Assembly: GCA_021851865.1 (NCBI GenBank)
Contig: JAJZBU010000010.1
Span: 1 to 64,000 of the forward strand
Source of the DNA: Pseudomonadota bacterium
GTDB taxonomy: Bacteria > Pseudomonadota > Gammaproteobacteria > Pseudomonadales > Moraxellaceae
Direction of reading: 5' to 3'
DNA: 64,000 nucleotides
Shown piece after piece: positions 35,614 to 38,209 of this stretch. Numbering within the stretch: the first letter of the stretch is position 1; every line of letters begins with the position of its first letter. The notes beneath the pieces were generated by a model that was not told the DNA's origin, made no database searches, and worked only from the letters and a program-made list of their open reading frames with translations. The position numbers and the translations under genes were made by a program.

Positions 35614-36663
35614 ATGCGCCTGATGCATCGTTGGGGATTGAAATATCGTGTGGTACAGGTCGGCGTACTGCTGTCGTTGGCTTGGTTTCTGAGTGCTTGT
35701 TCGCCGGTCAAGATGGGGGGGGAACTGGCGGTCAAAATGACCGAGGAGAAGACCCTTCCGTTCATGCTGCAGGACGATGACGTCGACATGGCCTGCGCTT
35801 CGGGGGAGACTCTGACGCCGGTCTTGCGTTCGATCGCGGTGACGGGAGCCGATCCCGATCAGCTGGCCGCGATGACCTATGTCACCGCCGCCTATTGCAG
35901 CGAACAGCGGGCTTTTGCGGCAGAACTGCGCTATCTGCGCGCGCAACATGACAATCTCATCGACGACGCCGAAGACGCACGTATCGTGCAGAAGCGTGAG
36001 TCGGCGATCGCGGCGCGCCGTCAGTGGGCGGCCTATCGCGACATCGAGCACTACTTCAAGAGCCATTTCCACGTCGCTATCGGTGGCCGCTGCCCGTCCT
36101 TTCATCGTACTTATGATGAATTATCTTTCATGGTCGGCATGATCGCCGGTGTCCAGGCCATGGGTGATGACATCCAGTCACAAAATCAGGTCGGCGTGCC
36201 GCAGGATATCGCCGCCAAGGTCGAGCGCAGCATGGGCTGTCTCGATAACAGCCGCTGGTGGGGCGTTCCCCTGGCCATCCGCGCTGCCGTCTGGAACATG
36301 CTGCCGGGAGCGACACCGCCGGGTGCCGACCCATGGCAGTCGCTGGTGCAGGCCGCCAAGATCGGCCGTGCGCGCGGTGTGCGCCTGAGCTATGTGGTCT
36401 ATGCCTTGTCGGCGCAGACCAAGGGTGACGATGCGCATCTGCGCGACGCCCTGCGCATGTACGCCGCTGACTCGAAGAACTTCAGCGTCGATCCCAAATA
36501 CCGCATTTTCGATGCCATCGCCCAGGCGCAGATCCAGAACATCTCGGATCGCTACTGGACCGAACATACCGGTTCGCGTACGCCGATCGGTGCTCTTGGC
36601 ACCTTCTGGGATGACAAGAAGAATGCGGCACCCAGTCTCAACCTGAATCTCGACAATATGTGA
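35614..36663 (+). CDS. TatT-like (TRAP-associated) lipoprotein
   Basis: A 349-residue lipoprotein with a signal peptide and lipobox LSAC at Cys 29. The mature protein is helical, with repeats such as MLQDDDVDMACASGETLTPVL and MTYVTAAYCSEQRAFAAEL that resemble the TatT family, a TPR-like partner of some TRAP-type solute-binding proteins. I base the match on the pattern, not on a search. It lies 49 bases upstream of a binding-protein gene on the same strand, the pairing seen for TatT. No DctQ or DctM membrane subunits occur nearby. AGAGGG precedes the ATG. Confidence 0.55.
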   Translation: MRLMHRWGLKYRVVQVGVLLSLAWFLSACSPVKMGGELAVKMTEEKTLPFMLQDDDVDMACASGETLTPVLRSIAVTGADPDQLAAMTYVTAAYCSEQRAFAAELRYLRAQHDNLIDDAEDARIVQKRESAIAARRQWAAYRDIEHYFKSHFHVAIGGRCPSFHRTYDELSFMVGMIAGVQAMGDDIQSQNQVGVPQDIAAKVERSMGCLDNSRWWGVPLAIRAAVWNMLPGATPPGADPWQSLVQAAKIGRARGVRLSYVVYALSAQTKGDDAHLRDALRMYAADSKNFSVDPKYRIFDAIAQAQIQNISDRYWTEHTGSRTPIGALGTFWDDKKNAAPSLNLNLDNM

Positions 36664-36712
36664 TCAGGCGGGGCAGGTTTTTTAACGACGACATCCACAT
36701 GGAGTAAAACTG

Positions 36713-37720
36713 ATGAAGTCGATTCTCGCGAAAGTGTCTGCCCTGGCGGTTGCCTCGGGCATGATGATGAGTCCACAGGCCCAGGCGGGCACCAACACCT
36801 TGTGCGTGTTCGATATCCTGGGAACGCAAGGAAGCGTGTTCTCGATGATGCAGGACTACAAGCTGCAGGCGGCGAAGTGGGGGGATACCCTGGTGCTCAA
36901 GCCCTACACAGATGAGCGTATCGCCGCCGAGGACTTCAAGGCTGGGCAGTGCGATGGCGTCGTGTTGACGGGGCTGCGTGCGCGCCAGTTCGACAGCTTC
37001 ACCGGCAGCATCGACTCGGTCGGCGCTGTCGTCAGCTATGATCAGCTGCGTGAAGCCGTCGCCTATCTGGCCAAGCCGAGCATGGCCAAGTACATGATGA
37101 AGAACGGCTTCGAAGTGGCAGGCATCTCGCCCATGGGCGCCGCCTATCTCTTCGTCAACGATCGCTCCATCAACAATGTCTCCAAGCTCGCCGGCAAGCG
37201 CATTGGCGTGCTTGATTACGACAAGGCCCAGGCCAAGCTGGTGCAGCAGGTCGGTGCGCAGCCGGTGGCCTCGGACATCACCAATTTCGCTGGCAAGTTC
37301 AACAATGGTTCGGTCGACGTCGTCGCCGCTCCGGCCGTCGCTTTCAAGCCGCTTGAACTGTACAAGGGCCTGGGAACGCGTGGCGCTATTCCCAACTTCC
37401 CCTTGGCGCAGCTGACGGTGCAGATCGTCATCCGGCCGGAAAAGTTCCCGGCGGGCTTTGGTCAGAAGTCGCGTGAATACGTCGCCAGCCACTTTGACAG
37501 CTCGCTGGTGCTGATCAAGCGCGCCGAGGCGGGCATTGATCCTAAGTACTGGATGGAACTGCCGGCCGCCGACAAGGAGAAATACATCGCCATGCTGCGC
37601 CAGTCGCGTATCGCTCTGACCAAGGACGGTATCTACGACAAGCAGTCGATGCATTTCCTCAAGGTCCTGCGTTGCCATGACAATCCCAGTGCCGCCGAGT
37701 GTGCTGAAAACCTCGAGTGA
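36713..37720 (+). CDS. Periplasmic solute-binding protein (DctP-like; resembles the AdeT/DUF6091 group)
   Basis: A 335-residue secreted protein with a cleavable signal (MKSILAKVSALAVASG to AQA at about residue 25). The mature part reads LCVFDILGTQGSVFSMMQDY, LKPYTDERIAAEDFKAGQCD and KRIGVLDYDKAQAKLVQQVG, and it has the features of a two-lobed binding protein. Homologues in Acinetobacter are annotated as AdeT, a putative RND efflux protein. This protein has no membrane segment after its signal, so a pump is not credible. The ligand is unknown. It is preceded by GGAG and paired with the upstream TatT-like lipoprotein. Confidence 0.7.
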   Translation: MKSILAKVSALAVASGMMMSPQAQAGTNTLCVFDILGTQGSVFSMMQDYKLQAAKWGDTLVLKPYTDERIAAEDFKAGQCDGVVLTGLRARQFDSFTGSIDSVGAVVSYDQLREAVAYLAKPSMAKYMMKNGFEVAGISPMGAAYLFVNDRSINNVSKLAGKRIGVLDYDKAQAKLVQQVGAQPVASDITNFAGKFNNGSVDVVAAPAVAFKPLELYKGLGTRGAIPNFPLAQLTVQIVIRPEKFPAGFGQKSREYVASHFDSSLVLIKRAEAGIDPKYWMELPAADKEKYIAMLRQSRIALTKDGIYDKQSMHFLKVLRCHDNPSAAECAENLE

Positions 37721-37741: not shown

Positions 37742-37766
37742 ATCGCCCCCTCGCGCAGGGGGCGAT
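37742..37766 (+). terminator. Strong hairpin after the binding-protein gene
   Basis: ATCGCCCCCT and AGGGGGCGAT form a perfect ten-pair stem with loop CGCGC, 21 bases after the stop codon. No T-run follows it. Confidence 0.6.
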
Positions 37767-37794: not shown

Positions 37795-37823
37795 ATGCCC
37801 AGGACTTGCTCCTTGGGCATTTT
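37795..37823 (+). terminator. Rho-independent terminator candidate
   Basis: ATGCCCA and TGGGCAT pair, the stem is extended by GGA/TCC with one bulged T, and four T residues follow. With the preceding hairpin it closes the lipoprotein/binding-protein unit. Confidence 0.6.
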
Positions 37824-38034: not shown

Positions 38035-38110
38035 TCACGCATGCCCACCATGCCCAGGGACACGATCCGCCAAGGTCAGGAAGGTCTACGAATAAGGGAA
38101 TGGAGGCGGT

Positions 38111-38209
38111 GTGGAGTGCGGTATACTCCACGACCGCGACATCAACGCCGCCACCAACATCCTCGCGCTCGGACATGAGAGTCTAGCTGTAGGAACCCCC
38201 ATCCTTTAG
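38111..38209 (+). pseudogene. C-terminal remnant of TnpB (IS200/IS605 family)
   Basis: The frame reads VECGILHDRDINAATNIL and then ALGHESLAVGTPIL before the stop. The CG-x-HDRDINAA-NI signature is the last RuvC segment of TnpB, with its catalytic aspartate, plus the second half of the zinc finger. Everything upstream is missing or unrecognisable. In IS605 elements the 3' end of tnpB and the adjoining right end encode the guide RNA, so the guide scaffold may partly survive. The remnant ends 13 bases before the 3' end of yceI. Confidence 0.8.

Follow-up and report, generated by a model that had tools for sequence, protein, structure and literature searches.

A TatT-like lipoprotein and an AdeT-type binding protein of a Moraxellaceae bacterium as likely partners in a divergent TRAP importer with an unlinked permease

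INTRODUCTION

The closest described relative of the system considered here is the TPR-protein-associated TRAP (TPAT) system of Treponema pallidum, in which the TatT protein (Tp0956), the DctP-like binding protein TatP (Tp0957), and the fused permease TatQM are encoded in the order T-P-QM. The arginine that selects carboxylate ligands is conserved in 96.8% of DctP proteins; Tp0957 has alanine at this position, and its pocket is hydrophobic (PMC4646407). Sterol trafficking in Methylococcus capsulatus also combines a binding protein (BstB) with a TatT-family helical protein that binds sterols (BstC), but their partner is the RND/MMPL permease BstA, not a TRAP permease (PMC10942540). In the Bug/TTT systems of Bordetella, many binding proteins exist per permease, and some Bug proteins are orphans (PMC5812351).

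AdeT1 and AdeT2 of Acinetobacter baumannii are described in the literature as RND efflux components. A. baumannii AdeT was detected in the periplasmic proteome and has a type I signal peptide (PMC6679007). A structural comparison assigned the family (AdeT1_2, PF19582) to the clan of periplasmic binding proteins, with TRAP DctP as its nearest relative and the TRAP-specific long helix as a shared feature (PMC11467057). Our literature search for AdeT linked with TRAP transporters in Acinetobacter found no paper in the library searched.

Here, we describe a gene pair encoding a lipoprotein and an AdeT-type protein in a 64,000-nucleotide stretch of Moraxellaceae DNA, the whole of which we call the window. 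We consider it likely that the two are the T and P proteins of a divergent TPAT-type TRAP importer whose fused DctQM permease is unlinked in this lineage. The system resembles that of T. pallidum in the predicted TatT fold, the fused QM permease, the DctP-like binding protein without the arginine, and the T-P-QM gene order, which most non-Acinetobacter relatives keep. It differs in that the T protein is not recognizable as TatT by sequence, the binding protein is AdeT1_2 rather than DctP, the QM protein has a loop of ~125 aa, START genes are neighbors, AdeT is present in many extra copies, and the permease is unlinked in the window genome. As a TRAP importer, it is ordinary in kind; its unusual parts are a T protein invisible to profiles, AdeT as P, the START neighbors, and the split operon.

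RESULTS

The gene pair and its surroundings

The pair lies directly 3' of infB-rbfA-truB-rpsO-pnp in the window. Both ORFs were found on one strand with 49 bp between them, at the coordinates given here together with the features that follow them.

35614-36663, + strand: T-like outer-membrane lipoprotein, 349 aa; lipobox LSAC, predicted all-helical TatT fold, no known family profile
36713-37720, + strand: P-like periplasmic binding protein of the AdeT1_2 family (PF19582), 335 aa; cleavable signal peptide ending in AQA
37742-37766, + strand: perfect 10-bp inverted repeat without a T run, read from the sequence
37795-37820, + strand: terminator-like hairpin followed by TTTTC, from a terminator-type scan
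38102-38209, + strand: relic of the C-terminus of an IS200/IS605-type TnpB, translation GGGVECGILHDRDINAATNILALGHESLAVGTPIL*; PF07282 at 21.6 bits, under the cut-off of 26.3

An earlier reading of the locus, made from the sequence only, had placed two hairpins after the second gene; both are present, the first lacking a T run and the second terminator-like. The number of terminator-like sites in the window was no higher than in shuffles, and one relative (G002) has its own stem-loop and T run right after the same gene. The window contains no DctQ/DctM gene, and a tblastn search found no remnants of permease or START genes in it. The sequence-only reading that no DctQ/DctM accompanies the pair therefore held for the window, although not for the genome as a whole (see below).

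The lipoprotein resembles TatT in predicted fold

The lipobox, read from the sequence as LSA-C29, is followed by serine at +2, and Cys29 is invariant across 29 aligned sequences. By the usual sorting rule, a lipoprotein with Ser at +2 is expected in the outer membrane, and this location is thus expected for the window protein. Lipoproteins of the Perlucidibaca group (L024, L026, L027, and L032) have Asp, the classic inner-membrane retention signal, straight after the lipobox Cys where the window protein has Ser.

No match to the lipoprotein was found among Pfam and NCBIfam profiles, including the TatT profile PF16811 at E ≤ 1; the only PF16811 match in the pair's own genome was the TatT of a separate operon on contig C12. 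Comparison with a TatT alignment by hhalign gave a probability of 0.6-0.7%, with no similarity detected, and PDB sequence searches with single proteins and with profiles yielded no relatives. An AlphaFold2 model of good confidence (pLDDT 85.9) was searched against the PDB with Foldseek, and 1000 chains were then re-aligned with VIA-align 2. The best match was TatT 4di3 (Z 18.2, rmsd 3.9, 252 residues), followed by TatT 3u64 (Z 18.0), 8g52 (Z 17.4), and the bacterial sterol transporter 7t1s (Z 13.6), the top four of the 1000 re-aligned chains all belonging to the TatT/TPAT superfamily. Helical bundles yield middling Z scores by default, and the best unrelated row, a designed barrel in fifth place, reached Z 11.6. 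Before this re-alignment, no TatT ranked first in the Foldseek results and no row fell below E 0.001.

The absence of a TatT match by PF16811 and hhalign speaks, in the terms of the sequence-only reading, against a T protein, whereas the fold comparison still supports a T-like identity. We therefore call the lipoprotein T-like by fold and keep it out of PF16811; its relation to TatT rests on the predicted structure. It is encoded beside a TRAP-type binding protein and a QM permease in 35 loci of relatives, the permease being unlinked in the window genome.

AdeT is a DctP-like binding protein and an improbable efflux component

The second protein matched PF19582 at 372.9 bits (cut-off 27). A match to PF03480 (DctP) was absent at E ≤ 1, and NF037995 reached 46.9 bits, under its cut-off of 50. 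Comparison by hhalign with the DctP proteins of neighboring TatT operons gave 87.3% with E 3.8e-6 over 268 columns. Searched against the PDB, the AdeT profile had no sequence relatives and touched DctP 4n91 at E 0.53 only. In a weak alignment, Gly165 of the window protein (mostly Ala in relatives) was aligned with the R of the KIRV motif of 4n91, which we take to correspond to Arg-147 of SiaP. Judged by these alignments, AdeT is a homologue of DctP without the carboxylate-selecting arginine filter. Together with the TatT fold, this homology bears out the proposal that the two proteins look like the T and P partners of a TRAP system.

The family label implies a different role, that of the periplasmic membrane fusion part of an RND drug-efflux pump. 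A. baumannii AdeT has been reported to lower susceptibility, production of AdeT1 in E. coli raised ethidium efflux (PMC7687900), and in the window genus, including the pair's own genome (L203 13049-17988, G000:C45), RND efflux pump genes are located about 2 kb away from the unlinked permease. However, E. coli gained no resistance from wild-type AdeT1, and the plasmid of the original report failed to yield the protein (PMC7687900). AdeT belongs to a solute-binding-protein family, no membrane-fusion-protein profile matched the window protein, and the conserved neighbors of AdeT are a TRAP permease and a T-like lipoprotein; RND linkage was not conserved, and none to the permease was seen in the other relatives looked at. 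An efflux role is thus highly improbable, and the efflux label fits poorly, as had been suspected from the sequence. AdeT-labelled proteins are probably better read as the ligand-catching part of an uptake system than as efflux parts.

Four cysteines (C31, C80, C321, and C330) are invariant in the family alignment (window 36713-37717) and likely form two disulphides. A second AdeT1_2 paralogue, 53% identical, stands alone near a contig end of the same genome (G000:C13 18193-19161; L002 1426-2478), with no permease beside it.

A fused DctQM permease is encoded elsewhere in the genome

A PF06808 search of the pair's own genome gave two matches, one in the C12 operon and the other a divergent fused DctQ-DctM permease of 700 aa at G000:C45:24977-27076. 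The genome search for an unlinked DctQM that the sequence-only reading had recommended was thus successful. The C45 permease scored 73.5 bits against PF06808 (DctM; cut-off 23.8) and 68.7 bits against TIGR00786, below the cut-off of 268. Its structure model, of modest confidence (pLDDT 71), matched the folds of IseQM 9pym (Z 24.4 over 520 residues) and SiaQM 8y4w (Z 24.4) with VIA-align; Foldseek gave E 9e-10, and the matches covered residues 11-696. Hydropathy predicts four helices ahead of the M part. Approximately 125 residues separate the first two predicted transmembrane helices (L006:697-2799, residues 40-163), a loop longer than any we know of in the DctQ part of such proteins. Short open frames matching permease residues 33-82 stand alone, as if encoding a separate protein, at G026:C43:15621 and G036:C294:1774.

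Simple loss of the permease is ruled out by the C45 gene. Only a single strong match to this divergent permease family is present in the own genome, as in each genome with an unlinked permease, which makes the unlinked protein the natural partner in trans. We infer that the pair uses it in this way.

The three components co-occur and are linked in relatives

Of 98 genomes from the family and order, 48 contained the lipoprotein, and precisely these 48 also contained the permease (E < 1e-80), a raw genome count that includes shared descent; none of the 50 genomes without the lipoprotein has the permease. AdeT1_2 was present in all 48 and additionally in one genome that is 68% complete. When the 37 other families of the order were taken as units, both proteins were present in 8 and both absent in 29; the chance of such a split is 1/C(37,8), about 3e-8, if families are independent.

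Eighty named loci were collected in a single scan of named genomes, with the parts located by tblastn. Lipoprotein and AdeT were adjacent in 47 of the 48 non-Acinetobacter loci, a pairing far beyond chance. The contiguous order lipoprotein-AdeT-permease on one strand occurred in 35 of the 80, among them loci of Alcanivorax, Pseudomonas chengduensis and relatives, Perlucidibaca, Paraperlucidibaca, Amnimonas, Agitococcus, and Fluviicoccus. The permease linked to the pair is a TRAP DctQM and not, as would have spoken against the proposal, an unrelated one. Twelve loci had the pair without an adjacent permease: seven belong to the window clade (L122-L128), four to further MAGs of this group (L129, L130, L131, and L135), and one is truncated at a contig edge (L175). 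In Marinobacter adhaerens, the trio is plasmid-borne, and its genes are annotated as a hypothetical protein, a putative solute-binding protein, and a TRAP transporter large permease subunit. The system was also found in two families outside the order, and a class-level genome (G305) had a shorter permease match and no lipoprotein.

G109, contig C27: trio of lipoprotein 98442-99380, AdeT 97296-98123, and permease 95170-97140
G266, contig C23: trio, in the second family beyond the order

In 32 Acinetobacter loci (L159-L201), a rhombosortase-like rhomboid gene lies between lipoprotein and permease, and a similar gene follows the permease in Agitococcus and Fluviicoccus (L133, L137, and L139). Upstream of the lipoprotein, Alcanivorax loci (L141-L158 and L197) carry an additional tandem array of two or three AdeT-type genes, and some have a second permease copy downstream.

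These distributions bear on the suggestion that the pair needs no permease and acts as a ligand shuttle in the periplasm or provides the input of a sensor. Such a role would suit the terminator-like hairpins that close the unit, the absence of a nearby permease gene in the window lineage, and the loci of some other Moraxellaceae in which AdeT is followed by a START gene in place of the permease. However, every relative with the lipoprotein keeps the permease, mostly adjacent to the pair, and the relatives' loci show no recurrent histidine kinase or regulator gene next to it. Since a permease exists in the own genome, a shuttle or sensor without a transporter, as the sequence-only reading had proposed, is unnecessary, and we consider it quite unlikely.

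Separation of the pair from its permease

The full trio stands directly after rpsO-pnp in Paraperlucidibaca (L206) and Agitococcus lubricus (L139), and the same post-pnp site holds the pair alone in the window. In the window lineage, the pair and its permease became separated, and the TnpB relic at 38102-38209 is possibly a scar of the rearrangement that parted them. All eleven unlinked permeases formed one clade in the permease tree (support 100/100). For three genomes of one genus (g13; G014, G027, and G037), the unlinked permeases joined the window clade, whereas the lipoproteins grouped with linked members of their own genus. This disagreement between trees suggests that the unlinked permease may have descended from an old duplication or a transfer. 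A tandem duplicate like that of G040 was considered as its source and rejected, the second G040 copy being closer to the linked permeases.

START neighbors and the probable class of ligand

Two secreted START/polyketide-cyclase-like proteins are encoded beside the C45 permease, in divergent orientation to it (START 53.3 bits; Polyketide_cyc 23.5 bits). In 10 named loci with AdeT, a START gene comes after the pair or the trio, and START genes stand beside the permease in G005 and G020. They are not universal, being absent from several trio genomes and present in some genomes without the system. The TatT fold, the missing arginine, sterol binding by BstC, and the START neighbors together favor a hydrophobic ligand, and the system probably handles such ligands.

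The same components might instead export or exchange an envelope lipid, with the START proteins and the lipoprotein serving lipid traffic between the membranes. The START genes beside the system would fit this, as would the Methylococcus precedent, in which BstB and BstC work with an RND-type pump in sterol trafficking. Against it, those binding-protein-dependent TRAP permeases that have been studied to date are importers powered by ion gradients (PMC5812351). We regard export or exchange as unlikely.

DISCUSSION

For a TPAT-type importer, the following course is likely. The lipoprotein, anchored in the outer membrane, would form a TatT-like helical ring with a pore and pass the ligand to the AdeT-type binding protein; a role in handing ligand on from the outer membrane, already suggested from the sequence, is plausible. 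The AdeT-type protein would close on the ligand and dock on the inner-membrane QM permease, and the latter would take the ligand up using an ion gradient. START-domain periplasmic proteins encoded beside the permease might buffer or chaperone the same ligand. In this scheme, the physical contacts among T, P, and QM and the direction of import are inferred.

Each of the 48 genomes with the system has between 1 and 19 AdeT copies (median about five), and most have a single permease of this type. Chromosome-sized A. baumannii records in a plasmid collection had five AdeT places, one lipoprotein, and one permease. This surplus of AdeT over permease, as with the Bordetella Bug proteins, suggests a shared permease. 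It is conceivable, although we put the chance below even, that one T protein and one or rarely a few QM permeases serve a scattered set of AdeT proteins as a lipid importer, with START proteins as periplasmic lipid chaperones. If so, Acinetobacter AdeT1 and AdeT2 would be orphan binding proteins of an importer and not efflux parts. The three A. baumannii copies in L202 belong to PF19582 and are 39-50% identical to the window protein; the literature assigns them to RND efflux, whereas the neighborhood described here points to a TRAP binding protein.

The genes adeT1 and adeT2 of a major hospital pathogen, which have been tracked under a drug-efflux label, thereby gain a concrete set of partners and a testable role in uptake. 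The comparison is useful because a misread family is re-filed and its function becomes testable. The TPAT group has been small, with T proteins that resemble carriers of fatty ligands; the comparison adds to it a large set of members from Moraxellaceae, Alcanivorax, Pseudomonas, and Marinobacter that sequence profiles alone overlook.

The pair's own genome also carries a canonical TatT-DctP-DctQ-DctM operon (G000:C12 69388-73066; L003 and L005). It is the same kind of system in the same cell, but its proteins match PF16811, PF03480, PF04290, and PF06808 directly and its Q and M proteins are separate, which clearly marks it as distinct from the divergent one. In its DctP, Trp takes the place expected for the carboxylate-selecting Arg.
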